From assembly GCA_001630475.1 (NCBI GenBank), contig KV419429.1, positions 205,679-269,678 on the forward strand: a stretch of DNA of 64,000 bases, read 5' to 3'. The notes under the pieces are model-generated. The model searched no databases, was not told the origin of the DNA, and worked only from the letters and a program-made list of their open reading frames with translations. Shown here piece after piece: positions 2,733 to 57,829 of the stretch. A program made the position numbers and the translations under genes. The DNA comes from Sistotremastrum niveocremeum HHB9708. Taxonomy: Eukaryota > Basidiomycota > Agaricomycetes > Sistotremastrales > Sistotremastraceae. Position 1 is the first letter of the stretch. The number at the start of each line of letters is the position of its first letter.

Positions 2733-5020
2733 TCAGGTGTACTGATCTCGTAAGTGCTTCAACAATTCGAGTGCCTCTGGCGAACGTGGCGTTATCTTAA
2801 ACTCGAACTCTTTCAGGATACTAAGCAATCAGATTAGGCTAACAGGCGACTTGAGTATTCTGTTCACTTACGCAACCAATCCGAAAGTGAATTTTGCAAC
2901 GGGCTCAATTTCCTCTCCGTTAGCGTTGACAGCCTTCTTGATGCTGCACGTTGCTAAAGTGAGCACGATGGTCAAGAAAATAATGTCTTCTGCGATCTCT
3001 TTCCCGGGACAAAACTGGATATTAGTTTATAGGTATTGAAGTGGGTTCTGTCACTGGATATTACTGAGCGAACTGAAGCTTACCCTAGATATCGCAATAC
3101 CAGTATGAGCCGAGGCCGCTGTAGGATCGATGAACAAACCCACCTTCTGCCATATCCAAACTGAGTAAGACGAGGATCGAGCTCCTTTTCTTGTTGAAGA
3201 TATCGATCAGGATTGAACTCTTGAGGTGATTTATATCTGCGCGCGTCTTGTGACATACCCCTATGTGAACGGTCAGCGCGAATACATATACATGACTGAT
3301 ATAATTGCCATAGATGAGCCCAAACGACCGTGTTAGCAGGGATTCTGTACCCTTTGTAAGTGTCTTCCACTTCAAGTCGATGCGGTATACCTGGGATTGC
3401 GTTTTGCGACCATCTGTGAGAGAAGGAGAGGCACTTACCCGTGGGAACTGGACGACGGAATCAGAATTTCTCCGTTTATAATCTTTTGCACGACTTCACT
3501 CACCGATAGGTGCCCATCGGAACACTTCCATGATCAGCGCGTCGACGAAGGGGAGGTTAACTCGATCGTCAAATGACGGCAACCGCTTTTGTTCGGTGAG
3601 TCGATCGATCTCCTCTTGAGCTCTTCTCTGATATTCGGGATACTTAGTCATTGCAAAATAAAAATGGTATAAGGTGGCGGTAGTCTGGTGAAAGAAGCGG
3701 CCGTGGTATTGATAGTGTGCACCTAACTTTGATCCAGCTATGACTTACTGTGTCAATGCCAGCTGTAGAACGAGAAATGAGAATAGTAGGCGTCTTCATC
3801 CTGCAGAAAACGTGCCTGTATACATGTTATATGAAGTATACTTGAGCAAGTCTTCGGTTTCCGCATCAAGTGGCCCTTCGGAAAGATGTTGCGCGACATA
3901 GGAAACACGCGCTGTGCCATTGCGCTAGGGGCCAAGAGTAAGTTGCATGAAGTGGATATGACCTCTATCATACGAGTTGCTCCTTTACAGCGACATATGG
4001 TCTCTCAACGGTTTCGAGCAAATTAGCTCGCCAGATCGCAGCCTTTCGCTTGAACCCTGCGAATGGGAACCAAGCAGGGACGTATTTCACTGATTGAAAA
4101 TGTAGATCGGTAGTATTCCTTTGACGGAAAGTCAATAAGCTCACAGATCGGTATCGTATCGACGAGAAAATCGCCGACCGAGATTGCTTCTCCAAATTCG
4201 CGTACATTCTTATCTGACATAATAACCAGTTCGTCCCGCTCGCCTTTGACTTGATATCCATAGGTGATATCCAATATTATTGTTCCTGTTAACCTTTGCA
4301 AATCAATCCAGTACTGAATAAAAACTTCGTGGTGACATAGAATGACAAACCTGGCGAGACGCACTTCCAAATGCGACTGGTCATTGAACACCCCTAGGAT
4401 GAAACTCGAGATCGCGTGGCCCATACGAGGATGATACTGCTGAGCGTGTCTTCCTCCGACGCCCCTCGCCAGCATGCGGCGCATGTTACGGATCCGATTT
4501 CCGGATGGTGCAAAGACGACAGACTTGTCCCAACCAACCCTGAAACGTGAACACAGTTTCGTTGGACGTAGGGGATCAACACTCATATCCAGTAACGACT
4601 CACAGTCCACCGGCCATCTCGAGGCGAGGACGGTCTGAATATATTGAGCTTCGCGTGTCTAACAGTTCCTTTGCATCTTCGTGCGAGTTGATGATTAAAG
4701 CAGGTGCCCCCATGAGATCCACATAGACCAAATCCCCTATAACAGACGTATATGTCGAATTAATCCCCGGAAGTTGGACAAGGGCATTACTCACCGAATT
4801 CTGCATTCCATTCCATGAACTTCACAGACTGGTTCTTTACCGGCATCTGATGAAGATTCCCGATAATAGGGAGAGGTCGAGGGCCCGGAGGGAGCGGAAG
4901 AAAGTGCCTTCGACGGTAGACTATATCCCAAATTTTCCATGCAAGCAGTATTGTCAGAGCGATGGATAATCCATTGAGAATCATCTCCCAGTCCATTGCG
5001 GAAAAGTTTTGGAGGCTCAT
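2733..5020 (-). CDS. cytochrome P450 monooxygenase (copy A of a tandem pair)
   Basis: Microsomal heme-thiolate monooxygenase that inserts one oxygen atom into a lipophilic substrate, using a P450 reductase. In order: an N-terminal membrane anchor (MSLQNFSAM then a hydrophobic stretch to WKIW), the proline hinge LPLPPGPRPLPIIGN, the I-helix oxygen-binding AGIDT (near 3745), the K-helix ExxR in ALIMEVFRWAP (near 3520), and the heme loop FGYGRR-x-CPGK (3160 to 3000). The last residues are FKITPRSPEALELLKHLRDQYT. The start was set at the ATG at 5020 because copy B begins with the same MSLQ; in-frame ATGs at 5032 and further upstream are possible. The heme loop needs two introns around a single base at 3084 (see findings). 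It shares gene length and promoter similarity with copy B. It resembles fungal 'O-methylsterigmatocystin oxidoreductase-like' P450s; the substrate is unknown. Confidence 0.92.
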
Positions 5021-14749: not shown

Positions 14750-17700
14750 ATGAGTTCCCTGACAGTTCACGGTGTGTAATAGATTCACTATGTCTGTGAG
14801 ACTCGAACTGATCCATCGCAGTTATCCGCGGCTCTGGCATGCCCATCAAGATAGGTAGGAGGACCGTCGACATATACATCCTTGTTACTTCTGGAGACCA
14901 GAAGCAGAACACTCGAACAATTAGCGGAAAGGCGGCACCTGAATGGAATGCGCAGCTTGGATTTACAAAGATCGAACATAGTCACCTCGTCGTCATCAAG
15001 ATCATGAATAGGAGGACCGTCATTCTTGGAGGGGATGAAGTCTTGGGTCAGACCAGCAAAACGGTCGAGAAATTGGTGGCTCAGCAGGGCAAGGAGAAAG
15101 GTGAGTCTCTTGTGTGACTCTCGAGATAGACTGTGCTCGAACCATCTTGGATAGACTTGACCGTCGATTTTGGAGCTCCTTCGCCTGATCGAAAGGCTCG
15201 TATGCGCTTAATTATCGCTCTCAAAGCGCAATCCCTCCCTGTCCGCCAGAACTCCTATCACGAATCGTTAGCTCTAGCGCCATCTGTCAGCTTGCCTAGC
15301 TACAGTGGATCGACCTGGTCCTCATTGGTTGCGATAGTCGAGAAATTGAACGGATTAGTAAGGGTAATAGACGAGATGGCTAGGGTATGCCCATTCGATC
15401 GCGTACTACTCCGCTCCTCACATCCACTCAGATTCACCCCTACGTCAACGTTGCCTGGCTTTTCTTGTCTCTGGCATACCATGTCCGTTCTTCGTTCCTT
15501 TCCGCCTACCATATCCGTTGACATTCCTGCATACAGTCCGTCGAGAATCAAAAGACTCGCGATCACAATGTCCAAAGACTCGGCGAATCCATGTATCGCA
15601 TGTATTCTTTTGTGGAGCACAGCAACGTCGAAACGAAAATCCCTCCGATGGGAGATGTCGTGCAATTAATGGCGCAGGAGACGGTCGAATGCCTCAAATT
15701 CATTCAGCAATATAATCATCAGAGCATCGCACGTATGTCACCAATCTTCAGTTTTGTCCTTCTGCTAACAACCTCGACTGTGCAGGACGGATCGCCACGT
15801 CGGCGGTTATGAACGTTGATCAACGGATACGAGAGTTTGATGAACACTTTCAACAATTACGCAGGGATTTTGACACTGGGCTGACAGTGCAATCTTACCT
15901 GCTCATCCAACGGACTGCCGATGATAGCAGTGCGTCAAAATGATGACGTCAGCTACACCCTCTGACACCGATTCATTCGTATTAACAGAACGCACCTTCA
16001 TTCGAAGCCACTTGAAGCACGTTCTTGCCAGTTGGGACCCGGATCGTGGTTGTCTTCCTGGAACGAGAAAGTCAGCCATCGAGGAAATCATGAAGTGGGT
16101 GATCAACCACGAAGACAAATATCCTGAGAACGTCTTCTGGCTATCAGGGGTAGCTGGTAGCGGAAAGACCTCCATTGCTCACACTGTTGCGGAACTCAGT
16201 GCAAAGATGGGACTCTTGGGGTCCAGTTTCTTCTTTAAGCACGACGAAGCCGGTCGGAACGAATCCACGTCCGTGTTCTCGACAATGGCCATTGATCTTG
16301 CCGCCTTCGACTCTCGACTCGCGGATCAGATAGCCAACATTCTCCAAACCACACCTTCTCTGACTGGTCCCAGAAGACAATTCCAGAGTCTCATCCTGGG
16401 TCCAATACAAGCATGCGGCTATTCCAGCCCTGTTCTTCTATTATTCGACGCTCTTGATGACTGTGGAACTCCTCGCGATCATCAAGAGTTCTTGCAGATG
16501 CTGGCCCAGGAGAGCAAACGGCTACCTAAAAATGTCAAAATTCTGATCACTAGCCGACGTGATGAGGATATCGTGGACGCGTTCCGCAACTTTCCCATTC
16601 ACCATTCCGATTTGGACCTTCATTCGGTCGAAAACCGTAGCGACCTCATCAATTACGCCGAAACTAAATTCGCCGACATCGCGCGGTCGAAGTCTGGCAA
16701 ACCGAATATCACTTCGCAATGGCCTGGAGCACAGGCTAGAGCCGAGTTTGTCGAACGTACGGCGGGGCTGTTTATATGGGCTTCTACTGCCCTTGAGACC
16801 CTCCGTGAATCTTGGAATCCTGACAAGGACCTCCAGGATCTCCTGTCAGAATCTTCTGCCGGTAAAGGTGCTCAAGAAACGCTCGATGCGCTTTATCTCC
16901 GAACGTTGGAGAAGAACGGATTGTGGGACGACGATGGATTCGTAAAAGCGTTCCGAGTCTCTGTTGGCGTCGTCATCGTATCCCGAGAAACTCTTCTCAT
17001 GGATTCCATCGACCGACTCATCGGTGAAGATCTTGGAGATCATCGGGTCGAACACGTGTTTTCTCGACTCGGAAGCGTTGTTCGGACTTCGGATGGACCC
17101 GTTCGATTTTTGCATCCTTCATTCTCAGATTTCCTCATCGATCCATCGCGATGTCAAAATCCGAACATGGTGGTAGTTGCGCGCGAACATCATTATGCCA
17201 TGGTCTCCCGATGTATCAAACTGATGCAATCCTCGCTCAAGCGAAATATCATTGAATGTCCCGACCCATCTCTTCTGAACGCCGAGATAGCCGAACTCCC
17301 GCGCTTGATCAAGCAGAGCATGAGCGAAGAGCTGCAGTACGCGTGTCGGCATTGGATATACCATTTGGTGAAAGGCGAAGGCGATCAGCAAGCGCAAATT
17401 CGCCTAGTCTATGACTTCCTCTCGAGCCAGGCGATTGAATGGATCGAGGCACTCAGCTTTCTGAAGAGCATGAGTGTTCTGATGTCAGGCTTAGGAGAAG
17501 TTGGCGAGTGGGCCAAAGTACGTATCTTAAAACTTTTCAACCTCAGTGTCATGACAATTCGCATCTAGAATCATACACATGGCAAGGGCAAACTACCGAA
17601 TCTCATAGTGCAACTGAGACACTTTTGCCATGCATTCGCATCGATTCTGTCCGGCGCTGCCAATCACATTTACACCTCAGCCTTACCATTCGTCCCCGCC

Positions 17701-19548
17701 GGATCCTCTCTCGATCCTCTTCTATCGAAATGGACAAACCTTCCAAAGATGAAAGTGGGAAGAGAACCGTTGTGGCCTTCTTTCGCCGTCCTGCGACGCG
17801 ACACAGGTCGCGTACACTCAATCGCCTATTCTCCAAACCGGCCTCAACTTGCTTCTGCTTCGGACAAAACCATTTGGATATTGAATACTCATACCCAGCT
17901 ACCACTCAATCCTGCATTAGGCGGCCATACCGACCAATGCTCGTGTCTTGCGTACTCCTTCGATGGCAAATTCATTATCTCAGGCTCATGGGATAGATCG
18001 ATCCGGATTTGGTCGTCTCAAACCGGCGAGCAGAAGGCTGTATTCGCAGACGCTCACCGAGCACCCATCTGCGCAATAGCCTGCGACCCTCATGGACAAT
18101 TCTTCGTGTCTGCCGCACAAGATGGTTCCGTGTACAGTTGGACTCTCAAAGGCCGCTGGCGCCAATACGTCAGCTCGATGACACATACAATCACGTGCCT
18201 TAACATTTCACGTGATGGGCAAAACATATTTTGTGGCACGCGTGGCGGCCAGGTTATCTGTTGGGACGTCAGCCATGATTCTTCACCAAGATATGTCAGC
18301 CTCGTATCTCAGCTCCCCGTCCGATCCCTTGTATCTTGTCCGAACGGCAAATCAATCGGAATTACGACAGGAGATGAGAGAAACGCTAGCCGTGGCACTT
18401 TGGAATTCCTTGATCCAAAGAACGGCGTGAGAATTGGCCCTCCTCTGATATCAGGTCTTTCAATGTATGACCTTGATTTCTCTCCGGATGGCAGCAAGGT
18501 CGTTGCATCCTGTCAATCGACTGTCCGCATTTGGGACATCAAAACGGGCAAGCTGCTGAGCTGCTTGCTGTCTCCTTGTGTCTTTGTAAAGTGGTCATCC
18601 GACAATCAGTTTATTGCATCAGCAACTTCCACGGGACAAACCCTCCTGTGGAATTTATCTACCATCATGGGCCAAGTCTTCGACCCCAACGCGGAGCGAC
18701 CTGCTCGTGCCGAACAGCTAGCATTTTCTTACGATGAGCTCGCGATCGCAGGTGGCACAAGACGAGGCACCGTTCGTCTTTGGGATCTGTCTACATCCTC
18801 AGAGCGACCTCCGATTCGCCCATCGACAAGTCAGCAGCCCGTCACTTGCGTTGCTTTTGAACCCGACGGAACCATTTTGAGCTGTGGTTTCAAGGACGGC
18901 ATCGTACAAGTTGTCATTATCAAAACGAGTCGATCGATCTTCACTCAGAAGGTCCATCAAACTCGAATCAACGCTCTTTGCTTCTCTTCCGCTGGTCCGT
19001 TCTTAGCTTCCAGTGCCATGGATGGCAACATTCAAATCTGGAATTATCGCACGCGAGAGACAATTCATTTAGTGGACTATTCGTCTGCATTTGAACCAGC
19101 CCGATCTCAAGCATCACATCCAAATACGATATCATTTTCGAACCAGGGAGACTCATTGGCTGCCGCTTTTGATGATCGAGTCATCATATGGAGTCTTTCG
19201 CCTACCTTATTCAAGTGCTTCGAGTTCAAGCTTCCTGAACCCAACATTCATATGTCGTTCAGTACCGGCGACAAGGGCATATGGAGCTCATCATTCCGTG
19301 CGGCGTCAGCTTACCATTCGATCTCTCCACCAACGACGATAACGACGAAAGATTCTGCCAGTGAATCACGACCAATATTATATCACATCGACAAAACAGG
19401 CTGGGTCTGGCAACACCCTGGGAAACGCCTCTTTCAAGTTCCGCACGAAAGTGCCGATTTTTTCATCTTCTCAATAAGTGGGAAGCTCGCATATCAAGCG
19501 AACAATCTTCTTCGTGTCATTGATTTCTCCAGCGCTCTCGTCGCTTAG
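14750..19548 (+). CDS. C2-NACHT-WD40 STAND protein (fungal NLR-like receptor)
   Basis: A predicted signal-transducing NTPase with an NLR-like plan. In fungi such proteins are linked to non-self recognition and regulated cell death; the role here is inferred. Exon 1 starts MSSLTVH at 14750 and splices to a C2-like domain (IRGSGMPIKIGRRTVDIYI, to about 15200). Then comes the helical region of this family (ARIHPYVNVAWLFLSLAYH, then YSFVEHSNVETKIPP). The NACHT core has Walker A WLSGVAGSGKTSIAHT (near 16140), Walker B VLLLFDALDDC (near 16435) and ILITSR (near 16540). After an intron at about 17520-17569 the C-terminal half holds degenerate WD40 repeats, for example GHTDQCSCLAYSFDGKFI and SGSWDRSIRIWS. 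The spliced product is about 1,480 residues. An ATG at 15940 lies inside an intron and is not the start. The propeller repeats are divergent rather than near-identical. Confidence 0.88.
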
Positions 19549-51210: not shown

Positions 51211-51547
51211 GTCGATGACTTAGGTCTTCTCGAGTTGAGTTGGTATAACAGCAAGAATGAGAAGTCAAGAAATGATGCCTGCGGACGAGTAAGATGCCAT
51301 AGGTAGATAGAAGTACAGAGATGACTTGCCAGTATCCGTTTGTCACTGTCAACGCGGGTGGAATACACAGATGGGATGCCAGAAATTTAGATAAATTCTG
51401 TGTGGGTACGGTCAGCGGAGAAGAACCAATTCCCCTGATGGCACTCACGAATCTCAATACTCAAACTCCTGATCGCTCGTTTCGCGATAGAGTTCACTCC
51501 TCGAGTCGATTTCGATTGTAAGTTTGCTCCCGATATCCTGGAAGTAG
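51211..51547. other. upstream region of the Ies2 gene
   Basis: Short frames only; part may be the 3' region of the uncertain gene at 51548-51900. No repeat seen. Confidence 0.35.
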
Positions 51548-51900
51548 TTAGTACGCTCCCCAGTCCACGCCATAGGGTGCAAGGATGGGAGTGTACCTTT
51601 CGAAAATATAGGATCTAAGACAGCCGGTAAGATAGATAGCAACGAGTATTGATGCTCTAGACTCGAAGATTTCAAGTTGAGCGCCGTCGTTGCTCGAATT
51701 CAAACTACCGTCCAGTCCACCGTCAGCTATTATGGTCGAATTCCAGCAGAAGGTGCCATATTCTGACCTCAATCGACGCAATGTGCAGGACGGTCTCTGC
51801 TTCAAAAAGACGAAGTATTAGAATGATGAGAGAGGACGTGCGAGTCGTCGGCTGCAACAAGCTGATTGAAGGTACCGGACTTACCGGCATTTCCTCCCAT
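51548..51900 (-). CDS. small hypothetical gene, boundaries uncertain
   Basis: ATG at 51900 gives MGGNA, then a good GTAAGT donor and a join to ETVLHIASIE. After that the model is ambiguous: reading on gives VRIWHLLLEFDHNS and a stop, while another frame stays open through ADGGLDGSLNSSNDGAQ. Both lie in the short space between Ies2 and RecQ. Not recognised. Confidence 0.35.
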
Positions 51901-52276
51901 CTCTTCCAAAAACGGAGCGCGCCTCGGCGCCTAACGTGTTAAACCACTAACTTGTACTCACCTCACGCGTTTACGATCTCTAAACCTGCTCATACACCTC
52001 TTCTCACCACCAAAACTCTTTATTTCGTTCTTAATGGAGATTCTAGACGAAGATGATGCAGCGGGAGATGGAAGGCTATTATATAGGGTAATATCTCACG
52101 AAAAGGCGTTTTCTACTAAACATGGTTAGGTGACGAATGCTTATTTCGAGTCATGCGCCAAATGATGGGGATGAAAAATTTAGGTGATCCGTTCCATCAT
52201 ATACGCCCTCTATCACTGCGCCGTGCGCCCCAACATCAAAAACTCAAGTAGTCGCTTTTCTCATTATTAAATTGCA
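51901..52276. other. promoter region of the RecQ gene
   Basis: About 375 bp of non-coding sequence between divergent starts; rich in AT near 52180-52270. No specific element claimed. Confidence 0.45.
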
Positions 52277-55200
52277 ATGCCACCCGATCGATCTACGACC
52301 CCGCGTCCGCGACGGCAGCTTCTTCTTCAAAGACCTAGGGGATTCGATGCAACGGTACAATTTTTCCTCCTCCATCCGACCCAAGTTACTAACGCCTCGA
52401 ACAGACTCAACCTATTCGCATCTCCTCGTCTCCCGAGCCCGAGCTCATATCCCGCAATAGAGGAAGAGCAGGCTCTGTGATATCAGTCGCATCAGACTCA
52501 TCGTCCGATTCATCTGTAATGGAGATCGACAACCCCGAACCGGCTCCCATCAGAGCGCGGAACCTCGATTCCCTCCTCATTTCTCGCTCTCAGCCTCGCA
52601 TAGAGGTACCTCCGGCTTCTCAGTCCTCTACCCTTGTTCCATCTTCTCAGGAAACGAGTAATACTGTAACGGCAGAAGAAGAGATCCGAGTCGATGTTCC
52701 GAGGCCCAGCGTGCAATTGCATCCTTTCCCGTCGGACACACACCCTACATCTTCCCAACAAACCACCACAATAACAATACCATGCATAAGCATCACTCCC
52801 TCAACCTCTGTATTAAATTTAACGTCATCCACACGAGCTCACGCTACCCCTCCCGAGTCAAGTGATTCTATACGTTCAAGGGTCCAGGACAAAATCAATG
52901 AAATCTACATCCTACGCCGTCGTTGCGACAACCTGACTGCTCATATAGAGCGTCTCGAAGAAGAATCGAGAGTTCTACTCCTCAAGTTAAATGAAGCTGA
53001 AAATATTCCACTCGTTCATGCCACCGAGGATGTTGCGCAAGTGAGGCCCGCTTCCGAAAACGATGCTGTGGTGAAGAACTACGAAGATACGAATGTATGG
53101 CCTTGGAAAGACGCGCTCAAGAAAACTCTCAAAGCAGCATTCAATCTCAACGAATTCCGAACGTGTCAAGAAGCGTAAGCTGCTCTCCGCGCCATATACC
53201 TCAGCATTGACATTATTAATAGCGTCTGCAACGCGAATCTCGACGGACGAGATATCATCTGTGTCATGCCGACCGGCGGTGAGTCCCAAGTCCCATTCCA
53301 AAAATCAACACGCGAACAACTGACTCGATGGATTGCTTGCAGGCGGAAAGTCCTTGACGTATCAATTACCGGCGCTTCTCGGCAACGGATGTACGATCGT
53401 TATATCTCCTCTCGTTGCGTTGATGCTGGATCAAGTCGCCGCACTTCGGGAACTTAACAGTACGTTCAATATCCGTTCGCTCGACGTTGTCAGCTCGCTC
53501 ACGATTTCACGGTGTTAGTCAATGCGGTCATGCTTTGGCGGGACGCTCCTGCTGCGACGAGAGAAGCTATCTTTGAGGGACTGAATGCCCTCGGAGATCA
53601 AGGAAACGATGATAAGATCAAATTATGTTATGTCACAGTATGTGTCTCCCAAACAACAATGGAAAGATCACTCAATGGAAGACAGCCTGAACGGATTGCC
53701 CAGAATGATAGGTTCAAAAGGATAATGCAAGAAATGGTTGAAGCTGGGACCTTAGGTAAACATCCATCTGTCTAAAATATGAAACTGCTCCACTCATCTT
53801 TCACCAATCTAGACAGAGTAGTCATTGATGAAGCACATTGTATCTCTCACCATCTGGATGACTATGAGCCATTCAGAGAAGATTACACCAGATTAGGCAT
53901 CATCAGAGAACAATTTCCAACTATTCCAATCATGGCTCTTTCTGCTACATGTTCTCCAAAAGTCTGTGATGACATCCTGCAAAGTTTGCACCTTGCAAGT
54001 CTCACACAAGCCAAAGGTCAGATCATTTATTCATCCAACTACAAAGGCTGACATTGGACATAGCTGCAAAATCAGGCCTCACTGTTTATTTCACAGCTCC
54101 ATTGTACAGTAAGTCTATGCTGGCATTTTCTTGAATTAGAAATCAAGATGGTTTCAGGGCCAAATCTTCACTATAAAGTCATCCCCAAACCTCGAGGGAC
54201 AAAGACAGTATTGCAAAGCATTAGTAAATATATATGCACAGAACATCTAGGTCAGAGTGGCATCATATATTGCTTCACAAGAGATGTGAGCTTGTTAACT
54301 CATAGATTAAGGTGCAATATTGATTTTCCTTCTTTTCAGGATGCTACAAAAACTGCAATTGCCTTGAGTGAGCTCTCTGGAGGCCAGATCATGACTGCTG
54401 CATTTCATAGCACATTGTGCACTGTGGAGAAAGTAAGACACATGCAGATCAAATATTATGTTTACTAAAAGCTGTCCAGGAAGATATTCATGCTAAATGG
54501 AAGAATAATGAAATACATGTGGTCTGTGCTACAAATGGTCAGTTGATTTCAGCAGATGAGAATGCACTGCATTGAACTTGAGAAACAGCATTTGGACTTG
54601 GAGTCAACAAGGCAGATGTCAGATTTGTGATTCATCTCACTGTAGGTTTATTGGGAGTCACATGTCCAGACTAATCACCATGCTTATTATGCAGATACCC
54701 AAGAGGCTGGATAGCCTCTTTCAGGAAAGTGGAAGAGCAGGCAGGGATGGAAAGCCTGCAGATTGCCTAATTTACTATAGACCACATGATTCACTGAAGG
54801 TCTTTGGTCTAATCACAACTGGAGGGGATAATTTGAGTTCACCCCAACAAAGGGAGAAATTGGAAGGCTGTAAGCTCCTCATCATTCTCTTGTTCTGATG
54901 AGCTCATAACAAGTCACAGTCAACAATATGGTCAAATTTGTCCACAATACTACTGATTGCAGAAAAGATATTTTTGGAAAGTGAGTTAGGACTGTGCTGC
55001 ACCAGTATTCCATCCAACACCTGCCACTCTTTCAGGTATCTTCAGCAAGAGAGTGTCACTGGTACTGGGCCTGACTCTGTTCCTCTCTGGGCCAATCATA
55101 AAGCTGCTTGTGGGCACTGTGATAATTGTCAGATGTGGGGACTTTCAGAGGCTCTTAGAGATTGTACCCTGGAAGCCTGGATCATTGTCAAGATTGTGGC

Positions 55201-55890
55201 TAGGGCTTCCAAATCTGGTCACCTGGCAGGTATCCGTGCTCTCATGTCCCAACTCAGAGGAAAAGAAGCTGTCAGAAATTTTGACCATCAGATAACTTGG
55301 TCAGAAGAGGTTTGACAAACATGCTTTGTGTGTGATTTTGTTTTGATTTCAGACTCTGCAGGAAATTATGTTCCTTGTTGTGCATCTTGTTCTAGAAGGT
55401 TATCTGACACTGAAGTCTGTAAAAGTTGGAATATGTAAGAGCTCCTGCATTTTTTTGTGTTAGATTTGACAAGCTTACCCATCTTCTAGTTGCACCCATG
55501 GTCTACCTCCTGCCAGATTTCAAAGCCACAAGCCTGCTCAGATTCTCAAAGGAAGACATATGCTGTGGTCTTGGTCCTCAGATATCCTGCTCTTTCCTTT
55601 CAATGCCTCAAATGAAGCCTTCTCTCAATATGTGGGATGCCAGCAAGATCCAGACCATCATTTCTACCAAAAAGGAGGCTCCTTTGCATGTCAGAGCTGA
55701 AAAAGAGATTGTTGATGATGTTGAGTCTCATTACAGTTGGCCTGCTTCTCCTTCTGGAGACACAGATGGAGAAAGTGAGTGCTTAGATGTTGCATACAGT
55801 GATTTTGAAGAGGACTGGGAGAATAGAGATTATGAAGAGAATTCTGAAGAAGAATTGGGAGAGGACACATTCATTGATATTGAGAATTGA
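52277..55890 (+). CDS. RecQ-family DNA helicase
   Basis: ATP-dependent 3'-5' DNA helicase. The start [21 protein letters not shown] is followed, after an intron, by a disordered Ser-rich N-terminal part and a coiled segment ([20 protein letters not shown]). Helicase motifs in order: motif 0 [13 protein letters not shown], motif [17 protein letters not shown] (near 53265-53375), Ia [29 protein letters not shown], motif [11 protein letters not shown] (near 53820), motif [38 protein letters not shown] and motif [18 protein letters not shown] (near 54720). The zinc-binding Cys residues are in the region [11 protein letters not shown] and AACGHCDNC. The C-terminus is acidic ([18 protein letters not shown]). 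At least ten short introns join in frame. Odd points: after DEAHCIS it reads [13 protein letters not shown] where RecQ enzymes usually have QWGHDFRPDY; and CpG vanishes from 53694 onward although the frame is intact. Confidence 0.88.
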
Positions 55891-56216
55891 ATGCTTTGGC
55901 TGGAATGATGTAGTAGTGATTAGGTATCTACAAATGTCATGTTTAATTCTAAAGTCCATGAGTCAAGCAAGGGTTGAAATGGCAAGAAAATGACAGGAGA
56001 GTGCTAGTAATACAGATAATGTAAGTGTGAGCTGAAGTGTCCAGGAAATTGATGAGGATGAATGAAGATGCACAGTATTGAGAAGATCAAAGCCATTAGA
56101 TTAGGTTGGATGTAGACCATGATTACTGGATAATCTTCAGCATGTTGTAGTGGTATTGCAGAGTAATGAACATACTAGGAAGATATGCATTATAATATCT
56201 TGACTTCAGGATGGTT
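53694..56216. other. CpG-depleted block covering the 3' two thirds of the RecQ gene
   Basis: Counting by eye, only two CpG occur in 2,523 bp (near 54193 and 55235). CpG is common immediately to the left (for example at 53521-53580) and again from 56217. TG and CA are frequent throughout, introns and 3' flank included. Arg codons are nearly all AGA or AGG here but often CGN upstream. Confidence 0.9.
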
Positions 56217-57829
56217 CGTAAGATTTAATCACAGGATGGTTCGCCGGGTCCACCACATCCAACAGTCTACATTCAAACATGAGGGACGCAGTCAAATCTG
56301 TGAATTATTTTGCTTACCCGAGGCCGTGGGAAATACGTGGCTCGCGGATATACGGAACGATAAGGTGTTTGAGGAATATAAAGAGTTGGCTCGATAGATG
56401 TTTTCGTTATTGAGTACACGAAAGCGTATGATCAATGAAAGGGGGACAAACAGTTCATGGGGTCGTCGAACAATGGCGAAATTGAGGATGAAAATGATGC
56501 TATCAAAATAATCAGCACACAAAATTCGAGAAGATCGATACCACTCACTGTTTACGGTGACTGCAGACGGGTCCGAGTTTCTCAAGTAGTATGCGAAGGC
56601 AAACAAAGAAATGAAAGTGGCGGATTTGAATGCGACCATGCGACGACGGGCCGAGAACAGAAAGCGGACGAAAAGAAAAAGAAAGGAAAAAGAAAGAGAG
56701 GCGGAAAGAGAACTAGTGTGGGAAAACGGAATTGCCGATTGATGATCGAACAGTATGGTAGCCCTTAGGCTCTTATACGAGTGAAGGTGAATCCAGTGCA
56801 TCATCTGCAGGGTGTGGCCTATACAGAGTTTCAGAAATCGCTTCGTCAAGCGGATCAGCTGTGCACTGAAGATCAACGCACGCTATATACACAGCACCTA
56901 CTGAGTCGTTCGTGGCATCAAATTCTCCTACATCGAAAGCTTTCGGTACCTTGTTTGATGATCCATCATGAGCGCGTATCAGCGGAGATAACGGACACGA
57001 GGCGTTTTCGATGACTTCGAGACCTCGGTTGAATTCGGAGACATAGCTGGGCTGTGTGATGGTGGGTTCGATCCAGGAGTAGCCATAGGATAGGGTGAAT
57101 ACGGAGTGCAGGAAGGGAAGTTTAGCCGAGTTTGGGGAATTCCGGGATCAGAGTACGCTGCACTATTATTAGGCGCATAACTATGACGGAGTCGTATGAG
57201 CCTCGTCGCACTGCCACTGGAAGAGCGAGTCAAAGAGCCTTAGGATTTTGCGTTGTGTATGTGTCGCCTGACACCGGTCTTGAGTCCAGCTTCGAAAGTC
57301 GGGGTCGAGCGTCTAGTTTAGAATACGTGCAGGATCCACTTTGGTCTCAGGCAAAGGAAGCTCAAGAAGAAGCGTCACTTTTTGGTCGCTACTGTGGTCG
57401 TCGTGGGAGTAGTGCAGGGGTCAAGACCGAAGAAATTCGGCTGTTGACGGGATGACACAGTACGTTTTCTCGACATTGGGAGGGAACACTTTTTGGGATA
57501 GGTTGTTCAGTTTCTGATCATTCCATGTAAAGAAGTAACGCACCCGAGTAATACAGTAGGCAAAATCGAACTGCATCATGAAACTCCTGTCCAAATGACC
57601 GTACCGAGGGCTGCTTGTGAGCATATGGAAATTCATGTTTGGCTATAGTGAACCTAGTGTCTTCTGCAATCATGTAACAGAACCAGCCAGAGCGCCAGAA
57701 ACCCATTAACTTGTTAGGCTCGCGTTCTTTTGGCATCCGTTTGAACCCGCGTTGCAGCGTTTGATGGATTAGACTTAGACCAGTGATATAACTCAGTGAC
57801 TCAGATTCACGTGTGGTTTTCTGATACAA
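56217..57829 (-). CDS. possible hypothetical gene or gene remnants, unresolved
   Basis: Several protein-like pieces lie on the minus strand: RFTIAKHEFPYAHKQPSVR (near 57620), RSFMMQFDFAYCITRVRYF (near 57570), LELPLPETKVDPARI (near 57350) and WIEPTITQPSYVSEFNRG followed by LEVIENASCPLSPLI (near 57040). They might be exons of one gene divergent from the amidase, but I could not join them confidently and recognise no family. On the plus strand a short frame at 56185-56397 ends LFCLPEAVGNTWLADIR and may be a remnant of another gene. Confidence 0.25.

Follow-up and report, generated by a model that had tools for sequence, protein, structure and literature searches.

CpG loss from the bodies of a RecQ-type helicase gene and a DNMT1-type methyltransferase gene, with the 5' ends spared, in the fungus Sistotremastrum niveocremeum

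The DNA analyzed here, hereinafter the window, is a stretch of 64,000 nucleotides from the basidiomycete Sistotremastrum niveocremeum HHB9708 (assembly GCA_001630475.1, contig KV419429.1, positions 205,679 to 269,678 of the forward strand). It contains a gene for a RecQ-type DNA helicase (52277..55890, plus strand) whose body and 3' flank have lost nearly all CpG dinucleotides, whereas the upstream region and the 5' part of the gene retain them. The same layout, as judged by CpG content alone, recurs in a DNMT1-type methyltransferase gene on another contig. That these CpG decayed in place, in a gene that stayed under selection, is well supported. We further consider it probable, albeit with reserve, that the decay was long-term and CpG-specific, proceeding probably via 5-methylcytosine over the gene body and the 3' end, with the 5' part protected.

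The CpG-stripped island in the RecQ gene

A preliminary description of this region reported about 2.5 kb with two CpG, bordered on both sides by DNA with ordinary CpG content, and this proved to be exact. The 2523 bp at 53694-56216 contain 2 CpG (54193 and 55235), compared with ~105 expected from the base composition and ~154 expected from the window's own CpG rate (Poisson log10 P ~-42 for 2 CpG against ~105). The CpG observed/expected ratio is 0.019 in this segment, where the TpG/CpA ratio is 1.48, and 1.01 in the window as a whole; when the window is divided into 1-kb bins, the ratio is at least 0.79 everywhere except for two bins inside the island. Stretches of 1042, 982, and 501 bp without any CpG, longer than all others in the window, occur in the island; the fourth in rank measures 113 bp. 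Maximum-likelihood segmentation of the CpG positions places the borders at 53608 and 56216, which yields 3 CpG in 2609 bp; a left border at 53693 is merely 0.97 log units worse and the next right border is 2.33 log units worse. The drop in CpG at the left border and the recovery at the right border each occur within less than ~100 bp, and the segmentation scan of the full window detected no further CpG-stripped island.

As also stated in the preliminary description, the left border lies inside the RecQ coding sequence, namely, in exon 5 or 6. The 1 kb upstream of the start codon (51277..52276) is normal, with 62 CpG and an observed/expected ratio of 1.14, and so is the 5' part of the gene (52277..53607; 105 CpG, 1.26). 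Beyond the island, the CpG content is normal immediately (56217..57216; 66 CpG in 1 kb, 1.23). All 3 CpG that are left in the island belong to arginine codons on the plus strand: CGG within YVTPERIAQ at the left edge (53692..53693), CGA at 54193..54194, and CGT at 55235..55236. At the right border of the island, the 12-mer CAGGATGGTTCG occurs twice, at 56207 and 56232, that is, 25 bp apart (region 56207-56243), with no other occurrence on this strand of the window; this could be due to chance.

The loss is specific to CpG and is accompanied by the expected products of C-to-T change. The density of CpG falls from 64-71 per kb in the flanks to 1.1 per kb in the island, where TpG and CpA reach 92.0 and 87.4 per kb, respectively, compared to 51-70 in the flanks; the gain of TpG and CpA (~55 per kb) thus nearly balances the loss of CpG (~66 per kb). 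The GC content is 0.51 in the left flank, 0.47 in the right flank, and 0.41 in the island. GpC in the island remains at 1.05 while CpG is nearly gone, which indicates that CpG was lost specifically. The exons within the island retain 3 CpG in 1647 bp, the 12 GT-AG introns (53638..55463, plus strand; together 636 bp) retain none, and neither does the 3' flank (55891..56216; 326 bp). Because exons, introns, and the 3' flank are equally emptied, the process acted on DNA, and selection against CpG in codons or in the mRNA was rejected on the same grounds.

The RecQ gene model consists of 17 exons (919 codons including the stop) and 16 GT-AG introns, 12 of these in the island, and encodes a protein of 918 residues with the reading frame open throughout the island. 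The splice sites were picked by eye and the model has no RNA support. In intron 10, a shorter version breaks the frame, and the next acceptor, which follows a plausible branch site, restores it with no base changed. The preliminary description had noted an intact RecQ frame with at least seven introns; the frame holds in this model, and so does the lower bound, the count in the island now being 12. Pfam domains DEAD, Helicase_C, and RecQ_Zn_bind (E 9e-8) were identified in the protein, and residues 258-794 match solved RecQ helicases ('ATP-dependent DNA helicase', E ~3e-86; 'ATP-dependent DNA helicase Q1', E ~7e-86). The two-lobed helicase core with the DEAH box is present. RecQ helicases typically have an aromatic-rich loop, such as SQWGHDFR, behind the DEAH box. 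The corresponding segment of this protein (window 53813-54016) does not fit this form, whereas the nearest paralogue, located on contig 4, has SQLGHDYR; the same segment also lacks an intron that is present there in the paralogue. By its domains and overall match, the predicted protein is a member of the RecQ family, with unwinding not assured by this assignment, and its helicase activity may differ.

Arginine codons and a second stripped gene body

A protein search of the genome yielded weaker RecQ matches on contigs 4, 1, and 77, with ordinary CpG content in most of the DNA examined there. The nearest of these, the contig-4 gene, has CpG observed/expected ratios of 0.85-1.25 in its helicase part. 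The RecQ protein was compared with this gene by splice-aware alignment, in which the contig-4 model was guided by the RecQ protein itself and hence is not fully independent. CpG decay, or a burst of mutation, converts CGN arginine codons into codons for Cys, Trp, His, or Gln or into stop codons. At the 20 sites with CGN arginine in the paralogue (aligned residues 371-800), the stripped gene has 8 arginines, all encoded by AGA or AGG, 5 lysines, and 7 other residues, and none of the 20 is Cys, Trp, His, Gln, or a stop. The overall counts of the potential deamination products in the same part of the two proteins, RecQ and paralogue, are close for Cys (14 and 14), Trp (5 and 6), and Gln (17 and 16). 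The arginine sites free of deamination products, together with the leftover CpG that are all in arginine codons, point to slow decay under purifying selection rather than a burst. Thus, the methylation- or RIP-like (repeat-induced point mutation-like) CpG loss that the preliminary description had recognized appears to be CpG-specific C-to-T decay, with the frame kept by selection; the TpG/CpA excess that it had suggested computing is indeed present.

A search of the genome for methyltransferases identified matches to PF00145 on contigs 10 and 15, and the contig-15 gene is the second case of a stripped body. Its island (L066:2617-6976, that is, C15:398617-402976) spans 4360 bp and contains 21 CpG against 192 expected, with observed/expected ratios of 1.03 and 1.07 in the DNA on its two sides. 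The gene starts at L066:1966; the upstream region and exon 1 have normal CpG content, and the island extends from exon 2 to beyond the 3' end, reaching the 3' end of a convergent gene that encodes a Crb2-type Tudor domain. The encoded protein contains DNMT1-RFD, BAH, and C5-methylase domains, the latter covering profile positions 1-322 of 324, and matches DNMT1 in PDB with E 3e-39; its N- and C-terminal parts, which are separated by a frame break considered below, were searched apart. The RFD domain was found at the contig-15 place alone in a genome search that was conducted exon by exon, so that a split domain could escape it. The island DNA likewise has one place in the assembly, although a strongly diverged copy could escape detection. 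The contig-10 gene, which we take to be DNMT5-like from a motif, has normal CpG content.

Of the 15 coding CpG in the DNMT1 island, 11 are in CGN arginine codons and 4 in NCG codons; the other 6 CpG of the island fall outside the modeled coding sequence, and 1 of these spans a splice donor. When the two islands are pooled, 14 of the 18 leftover coding CpG are in CGN arginine codons and none straddles adjacent codons, compared with 28 and 53, respectively, of the 119 CpG in the CpG-normal exons of the same two genes (Fisher P 1.3e-5 for the arginine enrichment). The contig-4 paralogue has 36 of 123 CpG in arginine codons.

CpG-poor DNA elsewhere in the genome

The CpG content of DNA was examined at ten other gene loci: three RecQ-like, four MutS, one RAD51-family, one with a weak match to SPO11, and the DNMT5-like gene. 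The MutS sample comprises four places, with two further MutS places outside it, and the RAD51 sample represents one of three contig places. The RAD51-family locus (C7:669k) has an observed/expected ratio of 0.87, and the weak SPO11-like match, with 14 CpG in 301 bp, is ordinary as well. Meiosis genes were considered as a possible stripped class, and this does not appear to be the case: the four MutS places, the RAD51-family locus, and the weak SPO11-like match are all ordinary in CpG.

A random sample of 42 positions was taken across the known sequence of 34 contigs; 2 that fell inside the window were skipped, leaving 40 segments of 320 bp. None of the 37 readable segments (3 that consisted mostly or wholly of N were dropped) was stripped, each containing at least 11 CpG. 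Such islands are therefore uncommon, with a share of the genome below about 8% (95%, by our own bound).

Among 52 reverse-transcriptase loci, nine appeared CpG-poor in part; two of these (L048 and L057, with 1032 and 569 N, respectively) were dropped because the apparent depletion coincided with runs of N, and seven remain (L015, L017, L030, L037, L038, L040, and L051). The reverse-transcriptase region itself is stripped in L037, L038, and L040. One end of contig 1 (L067:1-5800) harbors a Ty3-type retroelement with a chromodomain and open reading frames, and its first 5467 bp contain 0 CpG against ~286 expected. A dispersed repeat (541-bp query) is found at 34 places in the genome; one copy (L017:2962-3475) has 0 CpG in 514 bp and another (L030:867-1470) has 3 in 604 bp, and these two copies adjoin copia-type elements of normal CpG content. 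In L015, a copia-type element with normal CpG lies between CpG-poor flanks (36-996 and 3289-3701), as if it were a young arrival in old stripped DNA. The presence of a normal element amid such flanks speaks against a fast process acting on whole regions.

In the rest of the window, a tRNA scan detected no tRNA genes. Consecutive NACHT and WD40 reading frames at 15928-19545 resemble fungal NLR-type genes and have ordinary CpG content.

Explanations of the CpG loss and comparison with known systems

With the 5' end spared and the body and the 3' end stripped, both genes show the layout of body methylation rather than that of promoter silencing, and methylation of the body of an active gene is the likeliest cause. 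We infer that 5-methylcytosine was the agent, located in the body of the active gene, and that promoter chromatin shielded the 5' end. Under this scheme, germline CpG in the gene body, with the promoter and the initial ~1.3 kb exempt, would have carried 5-methylcytosine and would have decayed to TpG and CpA over a long time while the gene was still functional. Purifying selection would have removed the decays that break the protein, such that synonymous CpG vanished, CGN arginine codons gave way to AGA and AGG, and few CGN arginines stayed; the body of the DNMT1-RFD gene would have undergone the same decay, less completely. The genome encodes methylation machinery, that is, the DNMT1-RFD gene and the gene that we call DNMT5-like.

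If the gain and loss of CpG are taken to be in simple equilibrium (our own formula), the implied decay of CpG, relative to ordinary transitions, is ~110-fold in the RecQ island, >156-fold in the CpG-free retroelement, and 18-fold in the DNMT1 island. In mammals, CpG hypermutability is roughly ten-fold. Poor repair or an added mutator may account for the high values.

Several observations weigh against methylation-driven decay of active gene bodies, and some of them against intactness of the genes. First, the 110-fold and >156-fold values exceed that of mammals, so that plain deamination may not suffice. Second, the pattern was found in two genes alone, the ten other sampled gene loci being ordinary overall apart from a dip near the 3' end of the contig-4 paralogue. 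This dip (C4:720270-720869, in L009) contains 13 CpG in 600 bp, with 9 and 4 CpG in the 300-bp bins starting at 720270 and 720570 (observed/expected 0.62 and 0.23); it may be a faint or recent version of this footprint, or else a chance fluctuation. Third, choosing the RecQ splice sites by eye biases the model toward an open frame, and the DNMT1 gene has a frame break at about L066:3332 that is not explained by an intron and may be either a sequence error or a real defect. Fourth, the island part of RecQ has 18 histidines compared with 10 in the contig-4 paralogue, although none at the 20 informative sites, and a CGC site of the paralogue located immediately left of the border corresponds to Gln in RecQ; some arginines may have disappeared at positions beyond the alignment's judgement. 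Finally, according to a 2026 review, in the part of its text available (as is the case for all sources cited here), fungi have, some exceptions aside, mostly lost gene-body methylation (PMC13297926). In the available portions of two other sources, CpG signatures in basidiomycete elements are tied to a Masc2-type DNMT1 (PMC4352252), and methylation in Agaricus bisporus is nearly confined to transposons (PMC7473861).

An unlikely but serious alternative is that the RecQ gene is mostly silent, the locus being packaged as methylated heterochromatin in the majority of nuclei or life stages, for example, through spread from past repeats or via small RNAs, with brief use and weaker selection. The CpG-poor DNA of this genome includes retroelements and the repeat dispersed over 34 places, which fits this possibility. 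Methylation of gene bodies and flanks is negatively correlated with gene expression in Pleurotus (PMC5974365), and of the two alleles in a rust fungus, the one with lower expression carries more methylation (PMC12129025), as far as the accessible sections of these reports go. However, silencing normally covers promoters, whereas the upstream region and first exons of RecQ have full CpG content, and the protein has been under strong selection. The locus with the weak SPO11-like match, the four MutS loci, and the one RAD51-family locus, with their ordinary CpG, also speak against a silenced state.

Still less probable is a RIP-like burst, in which the segment had been duplicated in the past, CpG-directed mutation struck over a single sexual cycle or a small number of them, and the other copy was later lost. 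CpG-biased mutation of repeats has been reported in basidiomycetes (PMC4352252), and CpG-to-TpG hypermutation reaches genes in Rhizoctonia solani AG8 (PMC4014442), to the extent covered by the available text of the two papers; the sharp borders and the extreme depletion would also suit a targeted segment. The arginine codons argue to the contrary: none of the 20 CGN sites has become Cys, Trp, His, Gln, or a stop, and the arginines present in both genes, encoded by AGA or AGG in RecQ, require other changes. Coding damage of the RIP type, that is, stops and deamination missense changes, was not encountered in the RecQ model or at these 20 sites, respectively, and DNMT1 has the one frame break. 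Furthermore, no second copy of the RecQ or the DNMT1 island was found, although a lost or diverged copy is conceivable, and the DNMT1 gene would require the same accident.

The preliminary description had raised the possibility of a chimeric gene that acquired its 3' portion from a repeated, methylated RecQ family or a CpG-poor donor genome, a proposal in line with the left border inside the coding sequence and with the abrupt shift in GC content from 0.51 to 0.41. We now regard a chimera or horizontal acquisition as highly improbable. A DNA search of the 34.7 Mb assembly with 53694-56216 found a single place, the island itself, although a strongly diverged copy could escape such a search. The contig-4 paralogue has 13 of the 16 RecQ introns, matching in codon and phase, with 3 of them to the left of the border and 10 to the right, the latter being 10 of the 12 in the island. 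In the alignment, 60 of 115 residues immediately to the left of the border are identical to those of the paralogue. To the right, the figure is 124 of 261 for the helicase part and 174 of 397 for the entire aligned portion, which extends to residue 790; at the border itself, identity shows no clear step. A repeat search of 53000-57000 revealed no repeat pair marking both borders, and the DNMT1 gene repeats the layout. With no second copy, common introns, no identity step, and no border repeats, neither a chimera nor a repeated RecQ family, a CpG-poor donor, or an assembly join is supported, and on this evidence the island does not appear to be a chimera. Selected avoidance of CpG, whereby a CpG-free body would prevent methylation and silencing of the gene, draws on the presence among the two cases of DNMT1, for which silencing by its own product must be avoided, but has very little chance of being correct given that CpG is abundant in the upstream region, the place where silencing would have the greatest effect, the introns and 3' flank have been emptied to the same degree as the exons, the TpG/CpA compensation is a trace of passive decay, and the leftover coding CpG lie mostly where their loss would alter the protein.

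Returning to methylation-driven decay in place, its bolder form would be stable, body-restricted CpG methylation, or a CpG mutator, acting on a few active single-copy genes, including that of the fungus's own maintenance methyltransferase, with decay far above that by deamination. We put this forward tentatively and consider it rather doubtful; if true, it would amount to a loop of self-marking in fungi, which are generally regarded as having mostly abandoned gene-body methylation. CpG decay preserves a trace of past methylation in the germline, and two fungal genes with the body erased and the start intact would imply that body methylation, or a body-directed CpG mutator, has persisted in this lineage at a real mutational cost. 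Since one of the two genes encodes a DNMT1-type enzyme, the feedback is directly testable. CpG steps inside genes could also serve as a sequence-only screen for methylated gene bodies in fungi that lack methylation data.

Animals have gene-body CpG methylation along with a class of low-CpG genes. The case described here resembles this system in the loss of CpG from the body, the spared 5' end, and the genes that are still functional, and differs in that it occurs in a fungus, that CpG is nearly erased (0.02) rather than just reduced, and that it is known from CpG content alone. Among the matches listed in our search of the open-access literature, none described a single-copy fungal gene with CpG erased from its body alone. 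As in Pleurotus (PMC5974365) and the rust fungus (PMC12129025), CpG methylation would reach basidiomycete genes, measured there and deduced here; in those fungi, it is tied to lower expression, and the available sections of these reports do not describe CpG erasure of intact genes. Subtelomeric genes of fungi also encode RecQ helicases (PMC7473861), but those, as presented in the accessible text, are multi-copy and consist of the helicase core only, whereas for the gene described here no second copy was found, its distance from the contig end is ~100 kb, and its product has the zinc-binding region. The CpG-biased RIP-like mutation of basidiomycete transposable elements, as portrayed in the available parts of the sources (PMC4352252, PMC4014442), shares with our case the specificity of CpG conversion to TpG and CpA, and some retroelements of this genome are CpG-poor; the differences are that here genes with no second copy found are affected, the borders are sharp and confined to the body, and the RecQ protein is intact. 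In Rhizoctonia solani AG8, within the scope of the accessible text (PMC4014442), CpG-biased C-to-T change likewise occurs within protein-coding genes; there, it takes the form of heterozygous variants across genes and repeats, whereas in Sistotremastrum niveocremeum the loss is near-complete, local, and sharply bounded.

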